Positions 743 through 15,930 of a stretch of DNA of 26,072 bases are shown here, in pieces. The notes under the pieces were generated by a model that made no database searches, was not told the origin of the DNA, and was given only the letters and a program-made list of their open reading frames with translations. A program made the position numbers and the translations under genes. How positions within the stretch are numbered: position 1 is the first letter of the stretch; every line of letters starts with the position of its first letter. This DNA is from a virus, in IMG/VR virus record IMGVR_UViG_3300022907_000886, positions 1 through 26,072 of that record. One strand, written 5' to 3'.

Positions 743-1273
743 TTAATCAAGTGTCATTTCAAATGGTAAATCACTTGGTTCATAATAACCATCATCGCTA
801 TGTAGACCATACCATTTTCTACCATCTGTAAAGTAGAACCAATCGTGAGCTACGTCGTGAATTACCTTAAAAGGTCTTTGATATAGTTCGAACTTGATTG
901 ACTTTGCACTACCTCTAGCTAAATACTTTAGAACTGGAACACCATCATCCCAAGTTTTAGTTGTTGTCGTCGCTTTAATAGTGGCTGATTTGCCTTTTAG
1001 CTTTGCAGTATATACTTCACCACTAACCTCATCTGCTAAAAGTATTGCAGCTTCTGAGTCCATTTCATTAAGTACTGACTCAACAAGTCTTAGCTCTTCT
1101 GGTGAATACTCTTTAGTTTCTCCATTAATAGAGACAATATAGATTTCTTCATCACCTTCTCCTGTAGATCCAATAACTGAACCGATCATTCCGCTATCAA
1201 TACATTCTACGTTGTCACCTGCAGTAAAATGAGATTCATTGATAAACTGTTCGAATAATTTTATGTGTTTCAT
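743..1273 (-). CDS. Putative capsid-targeted internal protein, 176 aa
   Basis: The protein starts MKHIKLFEQFINE, then Ser14. This matches the layout of the T4 internal-protein capsid-targeting sequence, which gp21 removes after (L/I)-X-E. A second candidate site, VLNE (67-70), separates two parts. Residues 14-66 look like a small KOW/SH3-like barrel (FTAGDNVECI ... GSVIGS). Residues 71-176 form an unrecognised domain rich in aromatic residues (DWFYFTDGRKWYG). There is no membrane segment. I infer that the protein is packed in the prohead and cut into two mature pieces; the function of the pieces is unknown. It is the last gene before the terminator at 689-720. No Shine-Dalgarno sequence precedes the start, only AT-rich bases. 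Confidence 0.85.
   Translation of the reverse strand: MKHIKLFEQFINESHFTAGDNVECIDSGMIGSVIGSTGEGDEEIYIVSINGETKEYSPEELRLVESVLNEMDSEAAILLADEVSGEVYTAKLKGKSATIKATTTTKTWDDGVPVLKYLARGSAKSIKFELYQRPFKVIHDVAHDWFYFTDGRKWYGLHSDDGYYEPSDLPFEMTLD
1235..1273 (-). repeat. Dispersed leader repeat, copy 1 (MKHIKLFEQFINE)
   Basis: These 39 bases encode the shared 13-residue leader. The DNA itself is similar to copies at 2185-2223, 7210-7248 and 7561-7599; all four share AA(A/T)TGTTC(A/G)AATA on the plus strand. Confidence 0.8.
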
Positions 1274-1284
1274 AATTAATTTCT

Positions 1285-1884
1285 TTATTTAAGGTCCATT
1301 CTGACTTTAAACTTTCTGTCCCTAATGATTGAATTCATTTCATTAGAAAGGTATGCTAAGATTTCCATTTGAGCATTCTTAGCTGCTTCATCGACTGAAT
1401 CTTCAGCCATATCTTGTGAGAATTCTTTCCAATTGTCTGCAGTATCTTTATACCATTGTTTAAATGCTTCGATTAGGTCAGTTGAAGGTACATCAAGACT
1501 TGGAAGTTCAATGTATTCTTCATTAACTGAAGAGAAAGATTCAAACGTTTTTACATGTTTCATTTTCTTACGTTTCTTTTTGTATTCTTGTTTTGCATCG
1601 CCTTGTCCTGCAGGAACATCACCAGAGCCGTTTGTTGATGAAGTAGGCAGCATGACTGGTCCCATTCCTCCGATATTAGCAGGTGTGATATTTTCCTTAA
1701 CTTCTGGAAGTCCTTCGTGTTTCGTTTCTGCAAAATCTTTTAATTGTTTCAGTGTCATTCCGTCGACTAGGTCTTTTACCTTATCTCGGTAATCACCATC
1801 AACGTCGGAAAGTTGCATATCGCCTTTTTTTACAGCATATGCAACTCCCATTAATCGTTGTTGTGTTTTACTTTGACTCGGCAT
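1285..1884 (-). CDS. Two-part phage protein with internal capsid-targeting-like leader, 199 aa
   Basis: Residues 1-61 (SKTQQRLMGVAYAVKKG ... DFAETKHEGLPE) match a small domain common in phage proteins, which I recall as similar to DUF3008, of unknown function. A low-complexity linker with GGMGPVMLP and GSGDVPAG follows, then a basic stretch KKKRKK (102-107). At Met108 a leader-like peptide begins (MKHVKTFESFSSVNE, then Glu123), like the N-termini of the neighbouring genes. The rest (123-199) is acidic and helical. Either this is a fusion of two former genes, or Met108 (codon at 1563-1561, preceded by an A-rich stretch like other starts here) is an internal start giving a nested product of 92 residues. 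Residue 122 is a candidate prohead-protease cut. Function unknown. Confidence 0.78.
   Translation of the reverse strand: MPSQSKTQQRLMGVAYAVKKGDMQLSDVDGDYRDKVKDLVDGMTLKQLKDFAETKHEGLPEVKENITPANIGGMGPVMLPTSSTNGSGDVPAGQGDAKQEYKKKRKKMKHVKTFESFSSVNEEYIELPSLDVPSTDLIEAFKQWYKDTADNWKEFSQDMAEDSVDEAAKNAQMEILAYLSNEMNSIIRDRKFKVRMDLK
1519..1563 (-). other. Internal leader-like segment, possible nested start
   Basis: Residues 108-122 of the 199-residue protein read MKHVKTFESFSSVNE, a diverged version of the N-terminal leader of neighbouring genes. The ATG is preceded by AAACGTAAGAAA, similar in composition to real starts nearby. Confidence 0.5.
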
Positions 1885-1893
1885 AAATGTATC

Positions 1894-2223
1894 TTAAAGC
1901 TCTTCTTTTACTACTGATTCTTTAATACCTAAGAAATCTGCTGCTGCAGCTTTTAACTCATCATAAGTGTATTTACCACTTAATGCGTCAGCAAGGATAG
2001 TTCCACCTTTTTTACCAGTAGCGTATAATGATACGTGGTCAAAACCTAACCATGGTCCAGTAAATTCATTTTTAGGGTTTAAACCTAAATCTAAAGCTAA
2101 AGTTTTAGAAAGAGATTGTCTTCCTAAAAATTGATCGTTATATCCTAGTTTACCAGCTTTAACGTAAGCTGCAGGATTTACAGCTTCACCGATAAATTGT
2201 TCAAATAATTTAATATGTTTCAT
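1894..2223 (-). CDS. Putative capsid-targeted internal protein, 109 aa
   Basis: The leader MKHIKLFEQFIGE followed by Ala14 is nearly identical to that of the gene at 743-1273 (Asn to Gly at residue 12) and fits the I-X-E cleavage rule. The predicted mature part (14-109) is a single small alpha/beta domain of about 96 residues ending in GIKESVVKEEL, whose ESVVKE resembles the inter-module spacer of the large protein upstream. I recognise no enzyme motif and no membrane segment. Gaps to neighbours are 24 bases upstream and 9 bases downstream, so it sits in the same operon. Packaging in the head is inferred from the leader. Confidence 0.85.
   Translation of the reverse strand: MKHIKLFEQFIGEAVNPAAYVKAGKLGYNDQFLGRQSLSKTLALDLGLNPKNEFTGPWLGFDHVSLYATGKKGGTILADALSGKYTYDELKAAAADFLGIKESVVKEEL
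2185..2223 (-). repeat. Dispersed leader repeat, copy 2 (MKHIKLFEQFIGE)
   Basis: This is the second 39-base copy of the shared leader-coding sequence, differing from copy 1 by one residue and several silent changes. Confidence 0.8.
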
Positions 2224-2247
2224 TTTAGTATTTTACTTATTTTCTGA

Positions 2248-5067
2248 TTACCAAGCGTAATCCATTTTCTCAATTTTAGAGATTCTGTCTTTAATCGACT
2301 TAGCGTAATTCTTTACTTCTCTTGAGTAGTAATTGCTACCATATCCAGCCTCTTCTTCTCGCTTTGCTTGATTTGTATAGTCTACATATCTGTTAAAGTC
2401 ATCTAGAAGATTTTGCATTGCGTTTGAAGCATCTCTTAGTTTAACCTCGCGGCCTTTAGGATCATTTCCGATGACAACATCTCCCCATTTTCCTTTTTTA
2501 CCAGCAGTTAAACCATCTTTAATTTGTGCGGTAACAACATCAATCGCCTTTAGAACCTCTTTGTCAATTGGCATTGCAGCGGCTCTGTTTGCTAAGATGT
2601 CATGGTATCTTGCAAGGTTTTCTTTCTTAAAGTCTTTATCACTCTTAAATGCGGTTGCACCGGCTTTAGCAGCAGTTCTTTTATCTCTTTGAGCCTCTGT
2701 TGAATATCTTGCTCTTAAAATATCTAGGTCTAGAACATATGCTCTATCTGCAAGTTCAGCAACTTTAGATAAACTTGAAATACCTGAACCCCAACTATCA
2801 TTAGCTGCACTTTTTCCAAAACCAGCTCCATCATTTCTCTTAGTTTTAGCTAAACTTTTAGTTCTATTTTTAGATCCAAAACCTCTTGAATATTCTGCAG
2901 CTAACCATTCATTAGAACCATCAGTCACTCCAAGTAATGTATTTCCTGGAATCGTTGTAACTCCCCAAGAATTACTACCAGCATATGGGTTTGGTTTTTC
3001 GTTTGTTGTAAAGTATAGATAAACTGCTCTGTTTCTCTTTTCCTTTCTAGCCTGTTCAGGATCCATTTCAATAATATCAACATCTTGAATTTTATCTAGT
3101 TGAATTTTAGCCATTTGGTAGAAAGTCTTAGCAAAGTCTTTTGGCATAGAACCTGCACTTGTTAAGATTGACTGTAGTTTCATTGAACTAAATGCCTCGT
3201 TAACTGTTGATTCTAGTAACTCTGGAAATAGATCTTCAATATCTCTCATGTCCATGTCATATTGAGGTGACGTTAAGTATGCTAAAATATCTTTTTTATC
3301 GCCCTTTAGCATTACCATTCCTGGGTTATATTCATCAGCTTCAATATTGTACTTTTTAGAAAGTCTTCTTAAGTCTGCTTTTGAACCTGCAAAGTCAATG
3401 TCAATTTCAACCACATCAGATTTAGCTTCAGTAACTGATAAATTATTTACAAAATTGCTGAATGATTCGAACATTCTTTTGTTTTCCATTTTATTATTTT
3501 TTGTTTTATTTTCTTCTTTAAGAGTTACTGGGTAAGATTTACCATCGTATTCGAACTCTTCCTTACCTTCGTCTTTTGCTTTTCTAGCAGCTGCAACAAA
3601 TGCTCTACCTTCTTTAAGAGTTACTGGGTAAGTTTTACCATTGTATTCAAACTCTTCCTTACCTTCGTCTTTTGCTTTTCTAGCAGCTGCAACAAATGCT
3701 CTACCCTCAGTAACTTCTGATTCAACTACAGCCTTGCCTGATGAAATCATCATATCAAACCATGCTTTAGGGTTGTGTCCTTTTTCACGACCATCTCTAT
3801 AATCATACCCATCACCTTTAGGGCCAAGTATAATAATTGATTCACCATTTTTGAACCTAACCTTATCACCCTTTTTTAATACAACGGTTTCGTTAACTAC
3901 TGATTCTTCTAATTTTTTAGCAGCTAATTTAGGATCCTTCTTAGAAACGTTATCTAAGTATGAACCATTACCCCAGAAAGAAACAACTAATTCAGTTTGA
4001 GTAGTTGAATGCATGCCTGGTTTGTAAACTGCAATATCTCTTAGTTTTTTGTTAGAAGCAATAGTTTTCTTCATGAAGTCAAGAGCTTGTGCTTCTGATC
4101 TGAACTTCTTCATAGCACTTACACCGTCGCTATAAATCACTTCGTAGTTTTCAGAAACTGCTGATTCCTCTACATATGTTTTTGCATGCTTCATAATTGC
4201 AGCTTCAGCTTTTTTATAGTCTTCACCGTAGTATAATTCTGTACCGTCGCTCCATCTTTCGATTGCAAACTCACCATTTTTACTTGAAGTATAAGGCTTG
4301 TTTTGTTTTGGTGGGTAATATAAAATAATTAGACCATATGGTGCGTCACCATCTTTAATCATTTCATAACGAATAATATACTCACCAGCATCTGTAACAT
4401 CTTCTTTGCGGCTCCAATATGCTTTACCACCTACTGATTTTCTTAATTTTTCAGCTTCCTTTGAAGGCTCTTGTTCCGTAATCTCTCTTTCGCTGTAAGA
4501 TTCTTCTAATTCGTTAACTACTGATTCTTCAATATATTCAGCTAACTCATCATCACACCAACCATACTCACAATCACCTAATACTTTTTCAAGGTCTTTT
4601 TTCTTGCCTTGCATTGTAATTACCGGGTGACCTCCTGCTGGACCAGACAGTGATTGACCAATGATTTTCACTCTGTTCTTCTTTAAGAATTTTAAGAAGT
4701 CTTTGTTATCTGGATCCATTGCGTCCATTTCAACTTCTGCTTCGAATAGAATTTCTTCGCTTTCATTTACTGTAATCGATGAAAGTGCTCTTTTACCGAA
4801 CTTTGAAAGTGAAATACCATCTTCAGATACTGAGAAGTATTTTGCATTTCTACGCATCCATTTTCCAGAATCTGCAGAAAACTCTTTTAAGATTGCATTG
4901 AATTCTTCTTGAGTAATCTTACCATCAGCAATGGCTTCCAGCATTTTATTTCTAACTCTTGCAACCTTTCCAACCTCAACTGCTGGATGGTTTTCAGTAT
5001 ATCTTCTCTTTAGAGTAATCTTTCTAGACTCGTCTAAGTTGTTGATAAAGTCGTTAAAATTTGACAT
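2248..5067 (-). CDS. Multi-module polyprotein-like packaged protein, 939 aa
   Basis: The start MSNFNDFINNLDE (then Ser14) is a diverged leader. The chain then alternates compact modules with repeated acidic sites: TVNE (99-102), ESVVNE (181-186), ESAVSE (301-306), ESVVNE (388-393), ESEVTE (449-454), LSVTE (543-547) and ESTVNE (619-624). These bound modules of about 60-120 residues and a final domain of 315 residues (625-939). Residues about 111-186 and 548-624 look like diverged copies of one module. Residues 394-448 look KOW/SH3-like. Residues 454-517 are two near-identical 32-residue repeats. A second leader-like peptide begins at Met527. I infer prohead-protease processing into separate small proteins. 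No module has a catalytic motif I recognise. No signal peptide or membrane helix is seen. Confidence 0.85.
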   Translation of the reverse strand: MSNFNDFINNLDESRKITLKRRYTENHPAVEVGKVARVRNKMLEAIADGKITQEEFNAILKEFSADSGKWMRRNAKYFSVSEDGISLSKFGKRALSSITVNESEEILFEAEVEMDAMDPDNKDFLKFLKKNRVKIIGQSLSGPAGGHPVITMQGKKKDLEKVLGDCEYGWCDDELAEYIEESVVNELEESYSEREITEQEPSKEAEKLRKSVGGKAYWSRKEDVTDAGEYIIRYEMIKDGDAPYGLIILYYPPKQNKPYTSSKNGEFAIERWSDGTELYYGEDYKKAEAAIMKHAKTYVEESAVSENYEVIYSDGVSAMKKFRSEAQALDFMKKTIASNKKLRDIAVYKPGMHSTTQTELVVSFWGNGSYLDNVSKKDPKLAAKKLEESVVNETVVLKKGDKVRFKNGESIIILGPKGDGYDYRDGREKGHNPKAWFDMMISSGKAVVESEVTEGRAFVAAARKAKDEGKEEFEYNGKTYPVTLKEGRAFVAAARKAKDEGKEEFEYDGKSYPVTLKEENKTKNNKMENKRMFESFSNFVNNLSVTEAKSDVVEIDIDFAGSKADLRRLSKKYNIEADEYNPGMVMLKGDKKDILAYLTSPQYDMDMRDIEDLFPELLESTVNEAFSSMKLQSILTSAGSMPKDFAKTFYQMAKIQLDKIQDVDIIEMDPEQARKEKRNRAVYLYFTTNEKPNPYAGSNSWGVTTIPGNTLLGVTDGSNEWLAAEYSRGFGSKNRTKSLAKTKRNDGAGFGKSAANDSWGSGISSLSKVAELADRAYVLDLDILRARYSTEAQRDKRTAAKAGATAFKSDKDFKKENLARYHDILANRAAAMPIDKEVLKAIDVVTAQIKDGLTAGKKGKWGDVVIGNDPKGREVKLRDASNAMQNLLDDFNRYVDYTNQAKREEEAGYGSNYYSREVKNYAKSIKDRISKIEKMDYAW
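3427..3489 (-). other. Internal leader-like segment in the 939-aa protein
   Basis: Residues 527-547 begin MENKRMFESFSNFVNN and end LSVTE, before Ala548. It resembles the leaders of neighbouring genes and is preceded by an A-rich stretch coding ENKTKNNK that looks like a former intergenic spacer. Confidence 0.55.
3517..3708 (-). repeat. Tandem duplication, 2 x 96 bp, in frame
   Basis: Copies at 3613-3708 and 3517-3612 differ at about 4 of 96 bases. Each encodes 32 residues starting EGRAFVAAARKAKDEGK; only two residues differ (Asn/Asp and Thr/Ser). The near identity suggests a recent duplication of one module. Confidence 0.93.
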
Positions 5068-5086
5068 TTTTATAAAATTTGTTTTT

Positions 5087-6925
5087 TTATATATTCTTAA
5101 TAAACTCGTTGAACGTCAGTAGTGATGATTCATTAGCAGCCATTGACTGTTCTAGCTTAGCTTTTAGTTCATCATACATTCCATGAATTTCGCTTGGAGT
5201 TAACTTCTTAAATAGTTTCTCATCTCCAGATAACATCGCATTTCTAACTTGAGTTGCTGAAATGTTTTTACCAGTTCTTGGAATTTCGAATAGACCAAAA
5301 TCAGTTCTAACACCTAAATCTTCTCTATAGACTGGCTTATCAACTTGATGTGAATATGTTTTAAGTCTATCAGTTCCAGTACCCCATAGTACAGGCTCAT
5401 ATCCATCTGCTCTCATTGCATTAAATAGATGGTCAATACCTGCAGTTGGTAGTACATAAACCTTTTCGATTGGGTATTTTGCCTTTAACTTATTTAGCAT
5501 TTCAATTTGAGTGTCCTCGTCATAAGGTCTAGAGAATGCGTCTTCTTTCTTTTTGGTCTTTGCCTTAATTAGGAAGATTACAACTGGATGTCCATTTTGC
5601 TTATGGATCGTTTCTAATACCTTTGCATGTCCTAGTGTAAATGGTTGGAATCTACCAACAAACATATTAACTAGCTTCTGTTGTTCAGGATATTTAACAT
5701 TAAGAGCTTCAGTAATTGGGCTCTCTTGGTGTTTTAGTCCTTGGTTTTGTAAATAAGTTTTGAATGTCATAACCGATGCTTCATTGCTTTTTGCCATAAT
5801 CGAATTATCGATCTTGTCGACAATCTCATTGATCTGTCTCATTAGATCGGCATTAATGATCTGTGTTTCTTTAACCCTTCTTTTTCTAAAAGAGCCAAGT
5901 GCTATTTTATATAGTTCCTCAAGAACCTCATTTGAAACATACTCAATTGTCTTCTCGTTCTTAATAAACTTAGTGTTAAGTTTAAATTCTGGAGAAGAAG
6001 CAAAATCAGCTGAATCAAAAGTTACTCCAACATATTTAGCAGCGTTTTCTGAAACATATGAATTAAATAACTTTGAAATTAGTTCAATGTATCTTTGATC
6101 TGCCTTCTCCTCATTTAATTCAATACTTTCAATATCATATGTTGTAAAGTACTCAACTAGATCTAGGAGTGAAAGCTGGTACATATGAGATGGTTCTCTT
6201 TCTTCTTTCTTGATTAAGACATCTTCACAAATCTTAAAGTTTTTAACCGAACTAGAATCAAAAAAGTTAATTACAATTGAATCAATAGTTCCATCAAGAC
6301 CCTCATTTAACGCAGTTGAGTTCATTGCTGGGTTAAAGATATTGTACATTTTTCTTGAGAATGTGATATCTTCAAATACTTTACCATACTCAGCATCTGA
6401 TAGAGCCATTAATTCAGAAAGTTGTTCTCTTTGGAATTCATTTAAACTTCCACTAAATAGAACCTGTGGTCTTTGTACCTCTAGTACATCAGCCCATTTG
6501 TTAAGAATCTTTGGATCTCTAATTACCTTTTTGATAAGAGAATGATCTGCTGGATTTAAAACTTGAATGTGTGTTAACATTAAGTTGTTCTTTGGTATTC
6601 TATCGTATTTGATATTTACCGTTTTTGAATCTGTCATATAGTCAAATCCAAACTTCCAGTCTTTTGGCATTTCCTCTTTGTTATCTTCACTAATTGAATC
6701 AAAGTGGCTAATTGCCGATTCGTAGTATTTTACGATTGTTCTATCGACAGCATTCATCGGCTTTTTACTTCCACTCTTGAAGTAATTGTAGCCTTCTACT
6801 GTTGATTGAACATGAAAAGACGACGCTTGTAACTTCTCAGTAACAACACATGGAAGTTTAAGCATCGCTTGAAAGTCATTAGTATTTGACTCGCTATAAT
6901 ATGTCTTTAAGTTTTGTAACGCCAT
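5087..6925 (-). CDS. Ligase-like nucleotidyltransferase fused to NMN-adenylyltransferase-like domain, 612 aa
   Basis: The C-terminal part (about 417-590) is a nucleotidylyltransferase of the NadM/NMNAT type: GRFQPFTLGH (424-433, the (T/H)-x-G-H nucleotide-binding motif) and ISATQVRNAM (555-564, the I-S-x-T-x-x-R motif). The N-terminal part looks like a diverged ATP-dependent ligase or RNA-ligase fold, with VTEKLQASSF around Lys31 as motif I, NEGLDGTIDSIVINFF (207-222) as motif IV and VKNFKI (227-232) as motif V. These weaker matches are tentative. Between the halves lies MTFKTYLQNQ ... SPITE (386-406) followed by Ala407, resembling a leader plus cleavage site. The C-terminus (LLTFNEFIKNI) is also leader-like. 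It could make NAD or another nucleotide conjugate; the substrate is not determined by the sequence. Confidence 0.85.
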   Translation of the reverse strand: MALQNLKTYYSESNTNDFQAMLKLPCVVTEKLQASSFHVQSTVEGYNYFKSGSKKPMNAVDRTIVKYYESAISHFDSISEDNKEEMPKDWKFGFDYMTDSKTVNIKYDRIPKNNLMLTHIQVLNPADHSLIKKVIRDPKILNKWADVLEVQRPQVLFSGSLNEFQREQLSELMALSDAEYGKVFEDITFSRKMYNIFNPAMNSTALNEGLDGTIDSIVINFFDSSSVKNFKICEDVLIKKEEREPSHMYQLSLLDLVEYFTTYDIESIELNEEKADQRYIELISKLFNSYVSENAAKYVGVTFDSADFASSPEFKLNTKFIKNEKTIEYVSNEVLEELYKIALGSFRKRRVKETQIINADLMRQINEIVDKIDNSIMAKSNEASVMTFKTYLQNQGLKHQESPITEALNVKYPEQQKLVNMFVGRFQPFTLGHAKVLETIHKQNGHPVVIFLIKAKTKKKEDAFSRPYDEDTQIEMLNKLKAKYPIEKVYVLPTAGIDHLFNAMRADGYEPVLWGTGTDRLKTYSHQVDKPVYREDLGVRTDFGLFEIPRTGKNISATQVRNAMLSGDEKLFKKLTPSEIHGMYDELKAKLEQSMAANESSLLTFNEFIKNI

Positions 6926-6936
6926 AATAATTTAAA

Positions 6937-7248
6937 TTAAGCTGGCCAGATCATTACTGTACCTGCATCGTACCATTCACTGTACCATCCTCTTTTTGAA
7001 AGTTCCTTTTCCCATGTTTTTAGAACTCCAAGTTCGTAAGACTTTAAATTTGAATAGTAGTCGTAGATTCTTTTGCCTTTGAATTCATCTTCACATTCTC
7101 CACAAACCCAAATACCACCTTCAGAACCGTTAAACTCTTCTGTTGTTCTAGGTCCGTCAATATACGCTGCGATCCAACCCATCATTGAGTTGCGATCTAA
7201 AACTGAAGCTTCGTTTAGAAACTGTTCAAATAGTTTTACCTTTTTCAT
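6937..7248 (-). CDS. Putative capsid-targeted internal protein, 103 aa
   Basis: The protein begins MKKVKLFEQFLNE followed by Ala14, the same leader as three other genes here and a match to L-X-E cleavage. The mature part of about 90 residues is rich in Trp and Tyr. It has a CGEC pair (around residues 49-52) but no second Cys pair, so a complete zinc site is not evident. It is the first gene after the terminator at about 7260-7297 and ends 11 bases before the 612-residue enzyme gene. I do not recognise a family. Packaging in the head is inferred from the leader alone. Confidence 0.83.
   Translation of the reverse strand: MKKVKLFEQFLNEASVLDRNSMMGWIAAYIDGPRTTEEFNGSEGGIWVCGECEDEFKGKRIYDYYSNLKSYELGVLKTWEKELSKRGWYSEWYDAGTVMIWPA
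7210..7248 (-). repeat. Dispersed leader repeat, copy 3 (MKKVKLFEQFLNE)
   Basis: This is the third copy of the leader-coding sequence. The plus strand shares AAACTGTTCAAATA with copy 4. Confidence 0.78.
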
Positions 7249-7259
7249 AATGCTAATAT

Positions 7260-7297
7260 AAGAAAAAGAATTGACCTAGAAAAATCCAGGTCAATCT
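7260..7297 (-). terminator. Rho-independent terminator inside the cargo cassette
   Basis: On the minus strand the stem is ATTGACCTGG / CTAGGTCAAT with loop ATTTTT (7295-7270), followed by TCTTTTTCTT. In the minus-strand RNA the inner pairs include one G-U wobble, giving a 10-bp stem. On the plus strand the same position is an A-C mismatch, so the minus strand is the likely working direction, although a T-rich run also follows on the plus side. It lies just after the stop of the gene at 7309 and before the gene at 7248. Confidence 0.85.
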
Positions 7298-7308
7298 TTT
7301 TTATTTTT

Positions 7309-7602
7309 TTAAGCCATGTCTCTTGCAGCAGACCAAATTGCATCTTCAATTTCTGAAGAACCCATTCCATCGCAATCAACAAAATCAGAGTCTACTAGAT
7401 TATCGTTGTTATCGAATACTTCAATATCAAATCCAGTATAACCATCATAGGTTGCCTTAAAATAACCGTCATCTAAGTCATCTATGATTTCATCACCGTC
7501 TGCACCTAATTCATCAGCAATGTCTTTTTTCCAATCTCTTTTAGATCTTAGTCTTGCAGCTTCATTTAGAAACTGTTCAAATAATCTTACATGTTTCATC
7601 AT
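7309..7602 (-). CDS. Putative capsid-targeted acidic internal protein, 97 aa
   Basis: Two ATGs are adjacent at 7602 and 7599. The second gives MKHVRLFEQFLNE followed by Ala, aligning exactly with the other leaders, so 7599 is the likely start. After the leader comes a short basic patch (RLRSKRDWKK) and then a strongly acidic region (DDLDDGYFKATYDGYTGFDIEVFDNN is split across residues about 39-64). Such a charge pattern could suit a DNA-mimic or a core-packing protein, but that is speculation. The gene ends directly before a terminator. No family recognised. Confidence 0.83.
   Translation of the reverse strand: MMKHVRLFEQFLNEAARLRSKRDWKKDIADELGADGDEIIDDLDDGYFKATYDGYTGFDIEVFDNNDNLVDSDFVDCDGMGSSEIEDAIWSAARDMA
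7561..7599 (-). repeat. Dispersed leader repeat, copy 4 (MKHVRLFEQFLNE)
   Basis: This is the fourth copy of the leader-coding sequence; it supports translation starting at 7599 rather than 7602. Confidence 0.78.
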
Positions 7603-7625
7603 TTATTATTGTTTTTGTGATATTT

Positions 7626-8909
7626 TTATCTACCGTATTTTATAATACCCATTAGTTGGTTAATTGCAGCAAAAGTACCTGTTAATTTGTAAATTTTGCC
7701 CTTGTACATAAATACTAAACCTTCCGATGGAATAATTGATTCTATACCTCCGATTCTATCAAGTCTTGCTAGTTCAGATTCAACCTTTTCTATTTTGCTA
7801 ATATCTCCAGACTTTCTAATCTTTTCAGCCTCATCTCTAAGTTCTTTATGTAGCCTTTGCATTTCAGCATCTGGATTAGCAGCAACAAAATTAGAAGCAT
7901 TTTTTAGGATAATAGAACCAAGCTCTAAGAATAGATCCTCAAATGGTCTAATATTCTCTTTATATTTTTTGCTAACGTCTTCTTTATCAAACTTCTTAAC
8001 TGCAGCTGCCTGTTCCTTTGTAATTATTTTAACAAGTGACCTCATGTTAAGAGTTTTCTTATCACTATACGCCCATCTTAAAAGAAGTCCCTCTTTAATG
8101 TCTTGTGGAAGATCACCAAAGTTTTCTTCAATTTGTTCTCTCCACCACATTTCATGGTATCTTGAAACCTCATCAGCATCAGTTAGGTTATATCTTTTAC
8201 GTAACTCTTCGATTTTGTTTAGGAACTTTTTCTTATTCTGTTCAAAATTAAGATCTTTACCTAGTTTAATAATTTGAGGTGGGATAATTGTAAATGTATC
8301 TCCAATAGTTGCCTCTACTTTAGCTAGTGCATCTGCAACAGCCTTCGCTGAACCTTTAACATCACCAATGATATTACCTTCACCGTCGGTTTCTTTAATA
8401 CCGTGGAACTGGATTACATCACGGTCATATCTAATTACGTTTGGATTCTTTGAGTAGATTAACTCCATATTCATGAAGTTTTTACCATTAGCAAAAATCT
8501 GTTGATCTTTTGGGGAAAGTTTAGAAAGTTGCTTTGCTAAATCTTCAGCCGCTAATTGGAACGTGTCTTGTACCAGTTTACTTTTATGGCCTTCAAATTT
8601 ATTTTTAAAGGTTGGCAAGTCCATTGGTTCTTTTAGTTCCGTTTTATTACGAGAAAACTTAACCTCACCATCTTGAATGGTTGCAAATACATTTTGACCA
8701 TCAGTCTTTTCAGTAGCATCCTCTTCGAAATTAAGCTCTCCTTTCAGACCGGCCTCTACTAATTTTTTAAAGTCGCCAAAAGTTAAACCCTTGTCATCAA
8801 ATGGATGTGACATATGTCCGGCTGCACCGCCTTCCATAATAGATTGGAGCTCAGTATTCCTGAGCTCTTTCTCTACTAAAAATTGTTCATATGTAAATAA
8901 TTTATTCAT
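7626..8909 (-). CDS. Ligase-like nucleotidyltransferase with capsid-targeting-like leader, 427 aa
   Basis: The N-terminus MNKLFTYEQFLVE (then Lys14) is a diverged leader with L-V-E. A second candidate cut is SIME (23-26) before GGAAGHMSHPFDD, a motif I recall from related proteins in marine T4-like phages. Covalent nucleotidyltransferase (DNA/RNA ligase) motifs follow: TEKTDG with the presumed nucleotide-accepting Lys68, SRNK (86-89), MELIY (148-152, motif III-like), IQFHGI (166-171), EGLVF (396-400, motif IV) and KGKIYKLTG (403-411, motif V). A helical region of about 150 residues with coiled-coil character lies between motifs III and IV, unlike classic ligases. I infer an AMP- or GMP-transferring enzyme, perhaps for nucleic acid repair; the substrate is unknown. 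Its stop is 23 bases before the next start. Confidence 0.82.
   Translation of the reverse strand: MNKLFTYEQFLVEKELRNTELQSIMEGGAAGHMSHPFDDKGLTFGDFKKLVEAGLKGELNFEEDATEKTDGQNVFATIQDGEVKFSRNKTELKEPMDLPTFKNKFEGHKSKLVQDTFQLAAEDLAKQLSKLSPKDQQIFANGKNFMNMELIYSKNPNVIRYDRDVIQFHGIKETDGEGNIIGDVKGSAKAVADALAKVEATIGDTFTIIPPQIIKLGKDLNFEQNKKKFLNKIEELRKRYNLTDADEVSRYHEMWWREQIEENFGDLPQDIKEGLLLRWAYSDKKTLNMRSLVKIITKEQAAAVKKFDKEDVSKKYKENIRPFEDLFLELGSIILKNASNFVAANPDAEMQRLHKELRDEAEKIRKSGDISKIEKVESELARLDRIGGIESIIPSEGLVFMYKGKIYKLTGTFAAINQLMGIIKYGR
8871..8909 (-). repeat. Diverged leader segment (MNKLFTYEQFLVE)
   Basis: This segment encodes a diverged 13-residue leader. It keeps aromatic-Glu-Gln-Phe-Leu-x-Glu at the same distance from the start as in the four closer copies. 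Confidence 0.6.
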
Positions 8910-8910
8910 C

Positions 8911-10425
8911 TTATCCTAAAGAAGCTTTTAGAGTACCTACACATGCACCATAGTCATCTCCACATTTGTCTAAGATACCATCTACTACTTCTTGTGCCTT
9001 TGCTTCGTCAAAATCATCGCCAAATGCTTGCTGAAGTACAGCGAATGCATATTCTTTAAATTCATCTGCTGATTTTACTTCAGCTTCAGAAACTTCTCCT
9101 TCTTCCATTACTTCAACCTCTTCTCCTTCAGTTTCTTCAACATCTTCAGAATCTCCTGATGGAGATGGATAACCTGCTGGGTTTGTGTTGTCTCCGTTGA
9201 TTTCTGACTCATTTGCAAATTCTTCTGCATTTTCTTTGTCATCCGCATCAACATTAGTAACTTTATACTTTTTGCCGCCTACTTCAAATTCATCTTTACC
9301 ATCAGCAATTGCCTTAGCCCTTGCAGCTCCAAATTCATTACCTTCAAGTATTCTAGCCTCTAGTTCTTCAGCACTTTCGAATGTAGCATTAAATGCATTT
9401 AGTAAAGCTTCTGCAAATTTGCCATAGTTAATATGGTCTAAATACATTGCAGTACCTTCAACAATTGCTAGCCCTGACCATTTAGCAGCACCAGCAATAT
9501 TAGAACCATGATCTCTACAAATTTCTGATAATTTACCCGTTGATATTTTAACAGTATAGTTATTTAGTTCAGCAACTTTAACTTCTTTTGCAAATAATCT
9601 ACCTTTCATTTTATTTACAGTCGATGGAACCTCTCTAGAGAAGTTAGCATCTTCCATTGCAGCTGCATATAGTTCTTTAACCGCTCCGATAACGTGGTCT
9701 GCAGGAACTCCCATTGCATCTGGTCCTAGCGCTGGATATTTCTCAAAGAATTTAATATATGTGTTCATTACCTTCTTTGCATCACGCTTACCAGTAACAA
9801 CTACTGCTTCTCCAATAAATGCTTCAAATGCTGGAACCATGTTATCATCTTCATATGTATCAGCCATGTACCATTTACCATCACGCTCATCATATAGGTA
9901 AATAAATTCCGCCCATGATTGTTTTGCGTCGCTAATAAAGTCTCTAATTGAACCAATGTTACCTGTTAATGGTTCATCTCCGTCATTATAATAGTTAATC
10001 TTCTTTGGGTCAGCTTCTAGTCCAGATCCTGCACCATTTTTTAAAACTACATCAATGTTCTTTTTCTTAGCACCACTGTAACCCTTTTGGATTAGGGGTA
10101 GCATATTTTCTGGATAACCATCATAGTGCATGTAAACTGCTTCAATGTCTCCTGACTTTTTGCTTATTTTACCAAAGAAAGAACGTGTACCTTCTGTTAC
10201 AAGAGATAGCGATTCGTTTAGATCAGTTCCGTCTAGTTTACCAAAGAATTCTTCTCTTTGATCTTCATCTAATTCTGAAACCTTAGTAACTCCATACTCT
10301 GCAAGAAGATCTTTAAAACTTCTTACTGTTTCCTCTCTAGCAGCTTCTTTTTGTGCTTCAATTTCAGCTAAAACTTGCTCTTGTCTTATTTTTGCGTAGT
10401 CTTCAAATGAATGTAATTTAGCCAT
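8911..10425 (-). CDS. Multi-module packaged protein with internal cleavage-like sites, 504 aa
   Basis: The start MAKLHSFEDYAKIRQEQVLAE is a looser leader match. Candidate protease sites SLVTE (74-78, before Gly), EAFIGE (201-206, before Ala), ARILE (357-361, before Gly) and GEVSE (443-447, before Ala) separate distinct parts. Residues 79-200 hold VYMHYDGYPENMLP (97-110), part of a small phage domain of unknown function that I recall from other phages. Residues 207-356 form an alpha-helical domain that I do not recognise. Residues 361-392 are a third copy of the EGR-type 32-residue module of the 939-residue protein. Residues 393-450 are acidic and low in complexity, and the tail 451-504 is a helical domain with two Cys. 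A scaffold or core role is possible; the modular layout fits cargo better. It ends 1 base before the ligase-like gene. Confidence 0.82.
   Translation of the reverse strand: MAKLHSFEDYAKIRQEQVLAEIEAQKEAAREETVRSFKDLLAEYGVTKVSELDEDQREEFFGKLDGTDLNESLSLVTEGTRSFFGKISKKSGDIEAVYMHYDGYPENMLPLIQKGYSGAKKKNIDVVLKNGAGSGLEADPKKINYYNDGDEPLTGNIGSIRDFISDAKQSWAEFIYLYDERDGKWYMADTYEDDNMVPAFEAFIGEAVVVTGKRDAKKVMNTYIKFFEKYPALGPDAMGVPADHVIGAVKELYAAAMEDANFSREVPSTVNKMKGRLFAKEVKVAELNNYTVKISTGKLSEICRDHGSNIAGAAKWSGLAIVEGTAMYLDHINYGKFAEALLNAFNATFESAEELEARILEGNEFGAARAKAIADGKDEFEVGGKKYKVTNVDADDKENAEEFANESEINGDNTNPAGYPSPSGDSEDVEETEGEEVEVMEEGEVSEAEVKSADEFKEYAFAVLQQAFGDDFDEAKAQEVVDGILDKCGDDYGACVGTLKASLG
9250..9345 (-). repeat. 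Third, diverged copy of the 32-residue module
   Basis: Residues 361-392 of the 504-residue protein (EGNEFGAARAKAIADGKDEF ... KVT) align with the tandem modules at 3517-3708, keeping EG, F, AAR-K, DGK-EFE, GK-Y and VT. Confidence 0.75.
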
Positions 10426-10458: not shown

Positions 10459-11967
10459 TTATATATCTCCATCAAATTTAACCTTTTTGATGTCATATTT
10501 GAACTTTTGTTCTCTGTAAATTTTTTGTCTGGCCTTTGCATGTCGAATAAGGTAGTTGTCCCAATCCGGTGAACTAATATCGTCCACAAAATCAATGATT
10601 GTAACGCTGTCTTTCGATTCATGTTGTCTCAATCCACGACCAATTGATTGACGAATAATTACCTCACTCTTAAACGATTCAGTAAAGAAGATGTTGTGGA
10701 TTTTCTTGATCGAGATACCAGTCGAGAAGGTACCATACGATGCAACAATAACAACTTCATCGCCGGCTTCCATTTTCTTTTTATATTCTTCGCGTATGTC
10801 CTTGTCAGTTCCACCATCAACATAATAGATTGTCTTATCACTTTCCTGTCTAAGCTTTTCATATATCTTTTGACCGTGTTCAATGCGGTGGAAAAGTACA
10901 AGGGAATTGCCGCGTACTCTGGAAATAATGTTACAAATGAAGTTAAGGCGACCTGGTGAATTAATGACATAATTCTGTTCAAATTTGAATACGTCTTTGC
11001 TTTCATATTTATTAAATGCCATTTCCTTGAACGCGTTCTTTGCGCCTTCGGTTGCATAGTCCATCTCAATAACTTTTACGCGACAGTTTGCAATATAACC
11101 CTCAGTTTGAAGGAAATTTGCGCTTACTTCGGTAATTAGTGGACCAGTATAGGCCATTAGTGTTAGTCGATCCAGTGTTCCAGACTTTGGTATAGTACCG
11201 GAAAGGCCATATCGATAGTCGGCATTTTTACACTTCGATAGGATCGTTTTAATTGACTGTGATTTTGCCTTATGTGTTTCATCAATAATCACAGCATCAA
11301 ATTGGTCAAAGTATTCGGCTTTCTTCTTAATTAATGATTGATAGGTACCAATCACTACATTTCTACCAGCTCTGATCTTTTGACCGCTATAAATTTGCTG
11401 AATCTTTATGTTTACCTGGTTTCGATAGTTATAATCTGCAAAATCTTCGCTTGCTTGAATTACAAGTGAAACGTTTGGTACGATAAACAAGATCCTTTCA
11501 GCCTTTTGTTTCTCTAAAATATATGCAACTGTTAAGAATGATATCAGTGTCTTACCAGCAGATGTTGCAAGCTCTGAGAGACACTTTCTAAACTTTAAAA
11601 TGTTATATGCAGCCTCGACTTGATAGTCACGAGGTGTAATGTCTGAATCTTCAAAGAAGTCGTCTACCCAATTTTGAAACGACTCTTGATTAATTCCTCG
11701 GTCAAATAATTCACTGATACCATTAATCTTTAGCTCGAACCTGTACTCTTTACAGATGTCCATCACCTCTTTCCAAAGACCAGCAGGAATCCACTTATCG
11801 TCCTTGATATAGGTAATGTAACCGTCCCATACCCCTTTCTTGACCAAAGGGTTGAATCTCCACGAATCAATTCTCTTGGTCAAGGATATATTTAACTGTT
11901 CAAGCTCTAATGAAGTTGCATCATCAACCCTAAGCAGTTGTTTATTCTCTGTTAAACTGAGCTCCAT
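10459..11967 (-). CDS. uvsW: UvsW-like superfamily 2 helicase, 502 aa
   Basis: This is a DNA helicase for branched structures, which in T4 resolves R-loops, drives branch migration and helps move from origin to recombination-dependent replication. Helicase landmarks are RDYQ (113-116, Q motif), ATSAGKT (134-140, Walker A), DETH (229-232, Walker B; T4 has a similar DE-x-H box), SGTIP (256-260, motif III), ASYGTFSTGIS (409-419, motif V) and QSIGRGLR (440-447, motif VI). The N-terminal 100 residues match the T4-type accessory domain (WRFNP ... GVWDGY). The length matches T4 UvsW (about 500). The adjacent uvsY gene gives the T4 gene order. The start at 11967 has no Shine-Dalgarno sequence; a second ATG lies 4 bases upstream in another frame. 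Confidence 0.94.
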   Translation of the reverse strand: MELSLTENKQLLRVDDATSLELEQLNISLTKRIDSWRFNPLVKKGVWDGYITYIKDDKWIPAGLWKEVMDICKEYRFELKINGISELFDRGINQESFQNWVDDFFEDSDITPRDYQVEAAYNILKFRKCLSELATSAGKTLISFLTVAYILEKQKAERILFIVPNVSLVIQASEDFADYNYRNQVNIKIQQIYSGQKIRAGRNVVIGTYQSLIKKKAEYFDQFDAVIIDETHKAKSQSIKTILSKCKNADYRYGLSGTIPKSGTLDRLTLMAYTGPLITEVSANFLQTEGYIANCRVKVIEMDYATEGAKNAFKEMAFNKYESKDVFKFEQNYVINSPGRLNFICNIISRVRGNSLVLFHRIEHGQKIYEKLRQESDKTIYYVDGGTDKDIREEYKKKMEAGDEVVIVASYGTFSTGISIKKIHNIFFTESFKSEVIIRQSIGRGLRQHESKDSVTIIDFVDDISSPDWDNYLIRHAKARQKIYREQKFKYDIKKVKFDGDI

Positions 11968-14643: not shown

Positions 14644-14898
14644 TTATATACCTCTAAATAACAATGTTTCACCGCCATAGGTTGATACTAAATCTTTTTT
14701 AAAGCTTTCGCGCTTGAACGTTTCCTTCTAATTGAGGACCTAATTTAAAGATTATTGTATCGGACGAATGTTGGCTTGTAACATCATCATATATTATATA
14801 TCTAAGAAATAGGAAGTTTCACGCAAAAAGTTAGAACAATTTGAAACCTTTTTCTCAAAGGTGCATATAACTTTCAGGTCTTTGAAGGAGAGATAAGG
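14644..14898 (-). pseudogene. Possible frameshifted small gene upstream of gp32
   Basis: The 297 bases between 14602 and 14898 hold no intact gene. In successive frames, protein-like stretches join up. One frame runs on from the stop of the RuvC-like gene (SFKDLKVICTFEKK ... TSYFLDI, stop). A second overlaps it (YDDVTSQHSSDTIIFKLGPQ ... ARKL, stop at 14701-14699). A third continues past that stop after skipping one T (KKDLVSTYGGETLLFRGI, stop at 14646-14644). The second join is a CTT-TAA-A, where a +1 shift keeps a smooth sequence. No ATG fits the reading. It may be a decayed gene, sequence errors, or less likely programmed frameshifting. The region must also carry the gp32 leader; AT-rich TATATAATATAT at 14792-14805 could be part of a promoter. 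Confidence 0.35.
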
Positions 14899-15552
14899 TT
14901 ACTTGGTTTCAGGGGTTGAAATCATAGCTGCTAGAAAGAACGCGTCTACTAAATCATCAAGCGGCTTTGGGATCTTTTTCCCAAACTCTTGTTCTTTAAT
15001 CCAAGCATATAAAGGGCTCTTCTCTAGATTTTCGTCCCCAATTCGATTCTCTAAAAAAGCTTCAAACAATTGAGACTTATTCATGTTTCCTTTTCCAGCA
15101 AATTTCTTAATTGAGGTTGGAGCAACTGTCATCAAGTCTTCTGGTTTTAAAGTCTTAAGAAGTTTGAGCTTTAGGATAGCGGCGCCAGCAGCCATGTCAA
15201 TCATGTTATTAGTCCCCATCTTTGAACCATAGCTCGTACCTTCAAACGCGATCGTAAAACCATCCTCTTCAAAACAATTTTGTAACACTAGATTAATAAT
15301 GTCGTCCGCCATTCGGTCATATCTTTTGACCTTTGCTAGCTCGACGCTTGAGAATTCTTGTTCTTTTGTAAAATCAGGCTGACTAACAAGAGTGACATCT
15401 TTCAGTAGAGCCATTTCTTCTTGAAGCTTTTGTTCCTTTTTAGTACCGGTACCTGGCTTCATATAAGAGATAAAATAATACCTCTTACTCTTATCATTAT
15501 AGAGACATATCCCTGGAGAATTCAGGGAAAAGTCGATTGAAAGGTAGTTCAT
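14899..15552 (-). CDS. RuvC-like Holliday junction endonuclease, 217 aa
   Basis: This is an RNase H-fold nuclease likely to cut branched DNA in recombination and before packaging. Expected acidic residues are placed as in RuvC: Asp7 in YLSIDFSLNSPG, Glu104 in IAFEGTSYG, and Asp199/Asp200/Asp203 in KPLDDLVDAFFLA. The segment VAPTSIKKFAGKGNMNKSQL (143-162) matches the RuvC P-x-x-V-K-K-x-x-x-G-x-G motif. Length is slightly above bacterial RuvC (about 170). Phages of the T4 type usually use endonuclease VII for this step, so this would be a replacement. The start at 15552 directly abuts the stop of the previous gene (TAAATG). A general RNase H-like nuclease is the alternative. Confidence 0.78.
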   Translation of the reverse strand: MNYLSIDFSLNSPGICLYNDKSKRYYFISYMKPGTGTKKEQKLQEEMALLKDVTLVSQPDFTKEQEFSSVELAKVKRYDRMADDIINLVLQNCFEEDGFTIAFEGTSYGSKMGTNNMIDMAAGAAILKLKLLKTLKPEDLMTVAPTSIKKFAGKGNMNKSQLFEAFLENRIGDENLEKSPLYAWIKEQEFGKKIPKPLDDLVDAFFLAAMISTPETK

Positions 15553-15930
15553 TTATAGCTTTTTACCAAGAGCAGCACCTAAAGCAGCGCCCACAAGTCT
15601 TGAAGTTAATAGATCGTAAAATACTCCTTTCTGAATACCTAATACCTTAGCAATTAATTTACCAACTGATTTACCTAGAGCAAAACCTGTTAAACCACCG
15701 AAAATCGATCCTAATAAACCTTCATTAGTTAACTCATCATTAAATTTATTAATGTCAAGCTCTCCATTTTCGCTAGAATATTCAGCAACGAATTGATCGA
15801 TTGCCTCGTCTACCTTTGATTCAAGTTCTTCAGTCCATTCTGATTCTAACCCTTCAGTTAATATTCTCAGATCGTCTTCAGTAACCTTTTGTTCTTGAAG
15901 GTATTCTTTAAATGTCTTAATATCTTTCAT
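15553..15930 (-). CDS. Glycine-zipper protein with capsid-targeting-like leader, 125 aa
   Basis: The ATG at 15930 gives MKDIKTFKEYLQE followed by Gln, a leader of the same build as the cargo genes at 743-10425. An in-frame TTG at 15948 is also possible but overlaps the upstream gene and spoils the leader. After an acidic middle (residues 14-70, with LTE-Gly at 24-27 and TNE-Gly at 68-71) comes a hydrophobic Gly-rich region: GLLGSIFGGLTGFALGKSVG (71-90) and LVGAALGAALGKKL (112-125). This could insert in or cross a membrane. I infer that cleavage would release a membrane-active fragment packed in the head; that is untested. The gene sits between structural and nuclease genes. Confidence 0.78.
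   Translation of the reverse strand: MKDIKTFKEYLQEQKVTEDDLRILTEGLESEWTEELESKVDEAIDQFVAEYSSENGELDINKFNDELTNEGLLGSIFGGLTGFALGKSVGKLIAKVLGIQKGVFYDLLTSRLVGAALGAALGKKL
15892..15930 (-). repeat. Diverged leader segment (MKDIKTFKEYLQE)
   Basis: This segment encodes a diverged 13-residue leader ending in L-Q-E, the only one found outside the 743-10425 cassette. Confidence 0.55.

Follow-up and report, generated by a model that had tools for sequence, protein, structure and literature searches.

The window analysed here is the 26,072-nucleotide virus fragment IMGVR_UViG_3300022907_000886, which carries, on the minus strand like all genes discussed below, a series of genes that begin with a common 13-residue leader joined to unrelated protein bodies. 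Our results argue, with a probability of about 80%, for an expanded capsid-targeting system of the phage T4 type, in which the prohead protease would also cut polyproteins of cargo. The leader, its sharp end at E13, and the protease and capsid genes of relatives can be seen directly in the sequences. We propose that the leader acts as a T4-type capsid-targeting sequence (CTS), which would bring otherwise unrelated proteins into the prohead core, that the S77 prohead protease of the phage would cut it after (I/L/V)-x-E, and that the mature proteins would be packed alongside the DNA, most likely to act as soon as they have been injected into the next host. The T4 scheme would be widened here in three ways: by a far larger number of cargo genes in each genome, frequently arranged in tandem cassettes (that of the window headed by a putative late promoter), by small domains joined through ESV(V)(N/T)E sites and cut apart within the head, and by a cytidylyltransferase that bears the targeting motif again at its C-terminus.

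The original prediction held that four genes (starts 1273, 2223, 7248, and 7599) share the N-terminus M-K-x-(I/V)-(K/R)-L-F-E-Q-F-(I/L)-(N/G)-E on otherwise unrelated proteins, and both statements are confirmed, the bodies falling into four different families (10, 11, 3, and 12). Diverged leaders had also been proposed at 8909, 15930, 5067, and 10425, of which the first three stand and the last is backed only through its family. These were scored with a rigid profile built only from the four near-identical leaders and with a sliding eight-column core profile built from 62 other families, the P-values being taken from 20,000 shuffles of each protein's own N-terminus. The leaders at 8909 and 15930, kept out of the four-leader profile, reached P = 0.0002 and P = 0.0001, respectively, the latter being weaker with the sliding profile (P = 0.013). 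For the leader at 5067 the rigid profile gave P = 0.066 and the sliding profile P = 0.0002, and relatives of its gene start with MNFDQFLNES or MNFNEFLNEG. The start at 10425 (MAKLHSFEDYAK) is not significant alone (P = 0.066 rigid, 0.068 sliding); relatives of that gene start with MQKLKSFDQFAT or MERLVTFEQFAE. Beyond these N-termini, gene 1285-1884 holds an internal leader copy, positions 5090-5122 encode a C-terminal one, and proteins 743-1273 and 2248-5067 contain ESVxxE linkers. The features of the window are as follows.

743-1273, minus strand: leader protein of 176 residues, consisting of leader, domain A, linker, and domain B (residues 71-176)
1064-1081, minus strand: internal site ESVLNE preceding domain B
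1235-1273, minus strand: near-identical leader MKHIKLFEQFINE of gene 743-1273
1285-1884, minus strand: DUF3008 protein that contains a cargo domain (EYIELPS...) and, internally, a leader copy
1519-1563, minus strand: internal leader copy MKHVKTFESFSSVNE
1894-2223, minus strand: leader protein of 109 residues, the body of which is found after VINE↓ or ELNE↓ in other open reading frames (ORFs; ↓, predicted cut)
2185-2223, minus strand: near-identical leader MKHIKLFEQFIGE of gene 1894-2223
2248-5067, minus strand: putative cargo polyprotein of 939 residues with a diverged N-terminal leader and a conserved C-terminal domain (residues 625-939)
3196-3213, minus strand: linker site ESTVNE, preceding the C-terminal domain
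3889-3906, minus strand: linker site ESVVNE
4150-4167, minus strand: linker site ESAVSE; V(T/S)E↓ stands before the following domain in all 5 unique junctions
4510-4527, minus strand: linker site ESVVNE
5029-5067, minus strand: diverged leader MSNFNDFINNLDE, backed by its family and the sliding profile
5087-6925, minus strand: cytidylyltransferase-like protein of 612 residues
5090-5122, minus strand: C-terminal leader-like motif LLTFNEFIKNI
6937-7248, minus strand: leader protein of 103 residues
7210-7248, minus strand: near-identical leader MKKVKLFEQFLNE of gene 6937-7248
7309-7599, minus strand: leader protein of 96 residues
7561-7599, minus strand: near-identical leader MKHVRLFEQFLNE of gene 7309-7599
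7626-8909, minus strand: leader protein of 427 residues, conserved in the group
8871-8909, minus strand: diverged leader MNKLFTYEQFLVE of gene 7626-8909, backed by its profile score
8911-10425, minus strand: protein of 504 residues, with relatives of up to 1029 residues, some of which have several ESVxxE linkers
10387-10425, minus strand: weak leader MAKLHSFEDYAKI, backed only by its family
10460-10467, minus strand: GATATATA, putatively a late promoter, 34 bases upstream of the start codon at 10425
15553-15930, minus strand: leader protein of 125 residues outside the operon, with leader MKDIKTFKEYLQE at 15892-15930

Relatives were sampled through the 427-residue protein, which is conserved across the group: we used the best 80 of 234 confirmed relatives in the IMG/VR stretches scanned and took seven contigs (G001, G004, G005, G007, G009, G012, and G015, the first six of them large), in which genes were called simply as longest ORFs. 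A profile search of these contigs revealed a modular set of leader genes larger than originally proposed. At a score of 8 on the rigid profile, which was used for all leader counts and families, leader ORFs number 11 of 144 in G001, 17 of 152 in G004, 16 of 194 in G005, 15 of 212 in G007, 27 of 288 in G009, and 11 of 154 in G012, that is 97 of 1144 in the six large contigs together, whereas shuffles give 0.08-0.16 for each of these contigs. In G015, where the leader genes that overlap with those of the window are equal to them, the number is 8 of 68, and in the window itself 6 of 23. Shuffled N-termini yielded 0 to 0.16 matches per source, and internal methionines 0 to 3 of 112 to 880. Tandem runs of leader genes are frequent, with six genes each in G009 (147548-151503) and G012 (101694-106765), and the 111 leader proteins of the contigs compared form 66 body families, 41 of which are singletons. 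A DNA pattern for the leader matched at least 120 stretches in IMG/VR.

Among 65 family representatives, positions 1-13, which took part in the selection of hits, carry 1.5 to 5.2 bits each. Conservation stops at position 13, which is E in 56 of the 65; position 14, which lies outside the selection, carries 0.67 bits (A 16, S 14, K 8, and G 7, together 45 of 65), and from position 15 onward next to nothing remains. Under the same caveat of selection, position 7 is F/Y and position 10 F/Y/W in all 65 representatives, I/L/V occupies the place of T4 I8 in 58, and E that of T4 E10 in 56. The spacing of F/Y7, F10, I/L/V11, and E13 equals that of residues 4, 7, 8, and 10 of the T4 leader, of which the first two are described as acting in targeting and the last two in processing (PMC9026906, consulted in part).

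The T4 leader has 10 residues, three fewer than the usual 13 here, and the rigid profile recovered 0 of 64 ORFs in the T4 fragment and 0 of 40 in the Mel-JY01 fragment. With the core profile, which was built without T4, the four top-scoring ORFs of the 64 in the T4 fragment are IPIII, IPII, gp22, and IPI; IPII and IPIII (10.6) pass 9.0, the 95% point of the maxima from 200 shuffles of T4, the highest of which reached 13.2. An S77 prohead protease scored above the Pfam cut-off in 12 of 15 records of relatives and a T4-type Gp23 capsid protein in 9 of 15; both genes were taken from relatives because the window record is a fragment that contains neither of them, no S77 match being found in it. 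The gene order in G001, G005, and G009 is portal-like (gp20), small leader protein, protease-scaffold fusion, and gp23, so that the leader protein holds the place of genes 67 and 68, which in T4 separate the portal from the protease. All nine non-redundant members of the family of this small protein, which were found next to the protease, start leader-like, some of their leader ends being longer or less regular. Just after the protease domain of the fusion, a predicted site RVNE↓(S/A)YGF is conserved in 6 of 6 sequences that span the border. The original prediction had named a capsid cleavage site obeying another rule as evidence against it; the predicted site of gp23 does not show this, HKLYE↓DA, of the (L/I)-x-E form though with D as the next residue, being kept in 6 of 6 non-redundant sequences. 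The sequence tests thus mostly agree with the capsid-targeting reading in the T4-residue spacing, the leader protein within the head cluster, and the T4 internal proteins as top matches.

The prohead protease and the apparent scaffold, counterparts of T4 gp21 and gp22, form one fused ORF in G001 (93458-95458) and relatives, and the scaffold fusion of G005 (104769-106973) contains an inserted domain which by eye resembles the phrog_5922 domain of the window polyprotein. Three records that are close relatives of one another (G010:C1:36115-36369, G011:C1:57359-57613, and G009:C1:156418-156672) hold a short second S77-like frame (132 residues, 31 bits) well away from the head cluster, possibly a paralog of the protease.

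Leader-type sites recur inside the proteins. Among 2249 non-redundant proteins, 127 contain the pattern ES(V..)(.)(N/T..)E, with 270 copies altogether and up to eight per ORF, versus 25 copies in shuffles. Its excess is clear in G009 (17 against 2.5), G007 (10 against 1.6), and G004 (8 against 1.3), the T4 fragment having 1 against 0.6, and all 17 motifs of G009 lie in leader genes, homologs of the window genes 8911 and 2248, and the cytidylyltransferase homolog. In the family of the 939-residue protein the C-terminal 315 residues are conserved and the upstream sequence varies; the conserved domain begins at residue 19 to 768 in ORFs of 353 to 1076 residues, and the junction before it reads (L/V/I)(N/T/A)E↓A in 38 of 38 unique junctions (44 proteins). 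In the two shortest members the leader runs directly into this domain (MKHVQLFEGFVASQKLNE↓AFSS). The same exchange is seen for domain B of 743-1273, which follows SVLNE↓MDSEAA in the window and directly a leader, MKHIKLFESFINE↓MDSDAA (FINE↓MDSDAA), in locus L354; an (I/L/V)-x-E lies within six residues of the aligned border in 14 of 15 unique rows, and nine residues before it in the remaining one (L375). The 1894 body is preceded by VINE↓ in L016 and by ELNE↓ in G005. Leader ends and internal linkers are thus seen, at the level of sequence, to be equivalent at the same domain borders. In a general junction test, for which 25 of 44 unique rows (those aligned to body residue 1 or 2) were counted, E occupies the residue before the border (P1) in 18 of 25; once 6 junctions with a leader-like peptide upstream are excluded, 12 of 19 have E at P1, 11 of them as [ILVMA]xE versus 0.021 expected. 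The predicted structure of domain B is a compact unit which starts right after the site (predicted local distance difference test score, pLDDT, 91.4; predicted template-modelling score, pTM, 0.84), and searches of PDB and BFVD revealed no relative of it at E ≤ 0.001.

The 612-residue cytidylyltransferase-like protein ends with ...NESSLLTFNEFIKNI. In its family an aromatic core of the leader type is found within the last 18 residues of 45 out of 47 unique tails, and 38 of the 47 have an xxE site at most 14 residues upstream of that core. A stricter C-terminal form was found in 42 proteins, all of this family, versus 0.35 in shuffles (1695 proteins of more than 100 residues). We infer that the tail is a C-terminal targeting peptide; C-terminal processing is also described for T4 Alt and gp21 (PMC9026906, in the part consulted).

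Analysis of the cargo revealed few assignable families. Among single cargo families, a Zeta toxin/AAA kinase and a GNAT acetyltransferase scored above the Pfam cut-off and an ATP-grasp protein below it, and the PHROG matches of window proteins 2248 and 8911 are weak and unnamed; protein 1894 yielded no convincing PDB sequence match. Family 22 (G007 and G009) exceeds the Pfam cut-off of Acb1 (PF23474) with 30.0 and 31.3 bits versus 27, its best solved-structure match by sequence is also Acb1 (weak, E = 0.028), and it contains two HxT motifs, HCT and HMT, which we take to be the mark of 2H phosphodiesterases. We therefore read family 22 of the relatives, from its sequence, as a homolog of Acb1, which acts against the cyclic-oligonucleotide-based anti-phage signalling system (CBASS); it differs from the Acb1 family as known in carrying a putative capsid-targeting leader. 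The IMG/VR scan found 54 relatives, and 35 unique ORFs were present at E = 1e-5 among the loci collected. The (I/L/V/M/F)-x-E site ends 4 to 6 residues before the anchor in 22 of 22 anchor-fitting Acb1-like ORFs, and the leaders that precede the domain differ widely (MKHIKLFEEFVTE, MIKLKDLITE, and MELNEQLTKIKTMMGINE). Thirteen Acb1-like ORFs were not scored: seven close homologs carry MNE↓A at this position, the one of L296 begins with MKLKKYKQFIKE↓S, and the other five are remote and without such leaders, three of them starting with MLTEN or MLLQES. In loci L312-L327 other kinds of leader (MIKLKDLIxE and MxLNExLxKxKxxMGINE) stand before the Acb1-like domain, which suggests that several families of targeting peptides exist in other large phages. 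The leader is missing from cargo homologs elsewhere, namely the kinase of Pelagibacter phage HTVC008M and the 2H enzyme of Maribacter phage Molly_1.

ADP-ribosyltransferases (ARTs) are at most tentative candidates for cargo, families 24, 50, and 51 of G012 looking ART-like by eye: the only Pfam match was Tpt1/KptA for family 50 (E = 0.023, below the cut-off), and PDB sequence searches for families 24 and 50 gave nothing convincing. Family 24, which seems to resemble an R-STS-ExE motif, matched no ART in Pfam, and its structural model is poor (pLDDT 35) and unusable for recognizing an ART fold.

The octamer GATATATA is a likely late promoter of this phage group, judging from its distribution. 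Its forward and reverse counts are strongly skewed (23:0 in G001, 24:1 in G004, 32:1 in G005, 34:6 in G007, 1:36 in G009, and 0:32 in G012), and it is mostly intergenic, e.g. at 16 of 23 sites in G001, where intergenic sequence makes up 5%. In that contig 19 of the 23 sites are followed by a gene start at a distance of at most 90 bases, among them the starts of the protease-scaffold fusion (22 bases), gp23 (84 bases), and two putative sheath and tube genes (28 and 18 bases). Only 3 to 5 of the leader genes in each large contig come after it, and so small a share is expected if leader genes lie in operons. The window has two copies (10460-10467 and 14795-14802), and the position of the first one, 34 bases upstream of the start codon at 10425, gives the tightly spaced run of genes between 10425 and 743 the look of a single late unit. 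The T4 late promoter TATAAATA was rejected as a candidate, as it precedes 0 to 2 leader genes per contig and shows no overall enrichment.

A number of observations weigh against the proposed system. Packaging, cleavage, injection, and host action are deductions from sequence, window proteins 743, 1894, 2248, 6937, 7309, 7626, and 8911 match no Pfam family at E = 0.01, and the window, a fragment, contains no S77 match. In gp23 the residue after the predicted cut (P1') is D, outside the usual A/S/K/G of the leaders, and gp22 (5.7) and IPI (2.8) fall below the 95% point in the T4 comparison. Inside proteins the core profile lacks specificity, its top match in the window falling in a RuvC-like enzyme, for which reason we name internal leader copies only where family or junction backs them. 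Some of the counted linker motifs are leader ends themselves (e.g. FESFVNE), the motif is barely above shuffles in G001 (4 against 2.0) and moderately so in G005 and G012 (5 against 1.8), and in the last two some motifs occur in leaderless ORFs. Of the 19 junctions left in the general test, 7 have no E at P1 at the aligned place, and the junctions compared are largely homologous to each other. Finally, two GATATATA sites of G001 lie 4 bases from a leader gene start, which is odd for a promoter.

The same data can be read in other ways. The leader might target proteins to the head and be cut there while the cargo consists of structural core or DNA-packing proteins for head assembly rather than host effectors; the leader protein at the place of T4 67/68 is indeed acidic and core-like, and the phrog_5922-type domain of the window polyprotein has its look-alike in the G005 scaffold insert. 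We consider this unlikely, as 41 of 66 cargo families are singletons, Acb1, the Zeta-type kinase, and GNAT fit host-directed factors better than shell building, and T4 Ip1-3 are anti-restriction proteins (PMC12373910, seen in part). Less probable still is an uncut docking tag for some other phage assembly, such as a replication or transcription complex, with the xxE lying in a docking helix. That cleavage is itself deduced would allow such a tag, and putative replication genes adjoin the operon, but conservation drops sharply after E13 with A/S next, the leader interchanges with quite different peptides which have only (I/L/V)-x-E in common, and the T4 internal proteins are the best cross-matches.

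It is also doubtful that the internal ESVxxE runs are ordinary linkers kept by descent, with only the N-terminal leaders being cut. Most of the junction examples are mutually homologous, cleavage of linkers is deduced as well, and the motif count of G001 is only twice that of shuffles, whereas against this reading stand the overall excess of motifs (270 versus 25), the confinement of the G009 motifs to a few gene types, the invariance of E at P1 and A at P1' in 38 of 38 junctions despite changing upstream sequence, and the substitution of leader end and linker for each other at one domain border. As for the leaders being relics of a recent duplication of one gene start, in the four contigs compared the leader DNA of any one genome shows 63-74% identity, and the 39 bases that follow it show 27-33%. 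Nevertheless, this origin is hardly credible: most leader positions use both synonymous codons, which means that the peptide and not the DNA is what is kept, it is kept on 66 body families, and it matches the functional T4 residues; conserved leader peptides with freely differing codons across phages are largely what is seen. Returning to the T4-type targeting system with cut polyproteins, we lean slightly towards its full form, in which the polyproteins would be cut in the prohead into many small, independently folding proteins, giving a virion-borne set, anti-defence Acb1 included, that is delivered before any phage gene expression; since a single cut site is common to leader ends and internal linkers, such a set could be rearranged one domain at a time.

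In the T4 system, IPI, IPII, IPIII, and Alt likewise carry a short N-terminal peptide, cut by gp21, on unrelated bodies. The aromatic-x-x-F-(I/L/V)-x-E↓A spacing (T4 Y4, F7, I8, and E10), the T4-type head genes, and the S77 protease are common to both systems, while putative cargo polyproteins with internal sites, the C-terminal copy, and a protease fused to the scaffold set the present system apart. The T-even ip loci are reportedly the subject of a 1994 study by Repoila. PMC9026906 names three internal proteins (IPs) and Alt in T4, versus 11-27 leader genes per large contig here. According to the passages of PMC12373910 consulted, T4 Ip1-3 have only the leader in common and block different type IV restriction enzymes, at least ten IPs are reported in T-even phages, and the ip loci are likewise hot spots of variable genes recognized by a shared signal sequence; these are phages of enterobacteria, and polyproteins are not mentioned in those passages. 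Phage P1 carries the anti-restriction Dar proteins in its virion, the N-terminal 30 residues of DarB sufficing for packaging, but according to the authors the Dar N-termini have no consensus (PMC9024508, in part), whereas here one leader is common to dozens of families. In the giant phage SPN3US a gp21-like protease cuts head proteins at a short motif and two paralogs have an identical N-terminus, with the differences that several propeptides exceed 100 residues and that processing was found for 8 of about 50 head proteins (PMC5694885, in part).

The principle of modular capsid targeting is thus already known, since T-even leaders and the P1 DarB packaging signal have been described. Among the titles and abstracts listed in searches of open-access PMC text we found no description of this leader, of cargo polyproteins, or of a packaged Acb1, and relative to that literature the novelty would lie in the scale, in polyproteins with interchangeable sites, in the C-terminal copy, and in an Acb1 cargo. 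If the proposal is true, a readable tag marks the phage proteins that are carried into the cell, so that candidate injected effectors could be read off the sequences of many uncultured phages, which form a large group; a phage could deliver an anti-CBASS enzyme along with its DNA, the viral head would be a maturation chamber for cargo polyproteins, and the leader-cargo pairs would form a natural library useful for protein delivery work.

Among the matches listed, the GenBank records closest by capsid protein are a 462-kb huge phage, Prevotella Lak phages, and Tenacibaculum phages, which suggests Bacteroidota hosts for this group. A tblastn search of 50,697 phage records with the window polyprotein (2248-5067) found nothing at E = 1e-5, and no ORF reached a score of 6 in the 42-50 kb examined of Tenacibaculum phages PTm1 and pT24 and Prevotella phage Lak-A1. 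Two ORFs in the LR756500 region scored 8.7 and 8.9, yet they are unlike leaders of this type and were rejected.

Several minor observations concern leader-like or prefixed starts. The RuvC-like enzyme mentioned above (14899-15552, identified by eye) has its core-profile match, LFEAFLEN, at residue 162, probably by chance. T4 57B (L167, 13953-14411), which we take to be Acb1, starts with MMEFKDFSTG, with aromatic residues at positions 4 and 7, and adjoins ipI (MKTFKEFTST), possibly by chance; its first 40 residues contain no xxE site. A DUF3008-like N-terminus (MPSTSKxQQRLMG...), which may be another packaging element, prefixes cargo domains in window gene 1285-1884 and in L356, L371, L379, L381, and L382. 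Diverged leader-like starts occur in tandem in two huge phages (635 and 642 kb; loci L296 and L291, LR745206 and LR756502), where tandem genes start with MKHLKKFNES or MKYIKLFES, perhaps a shortened leader ending in F-N-E↓S.

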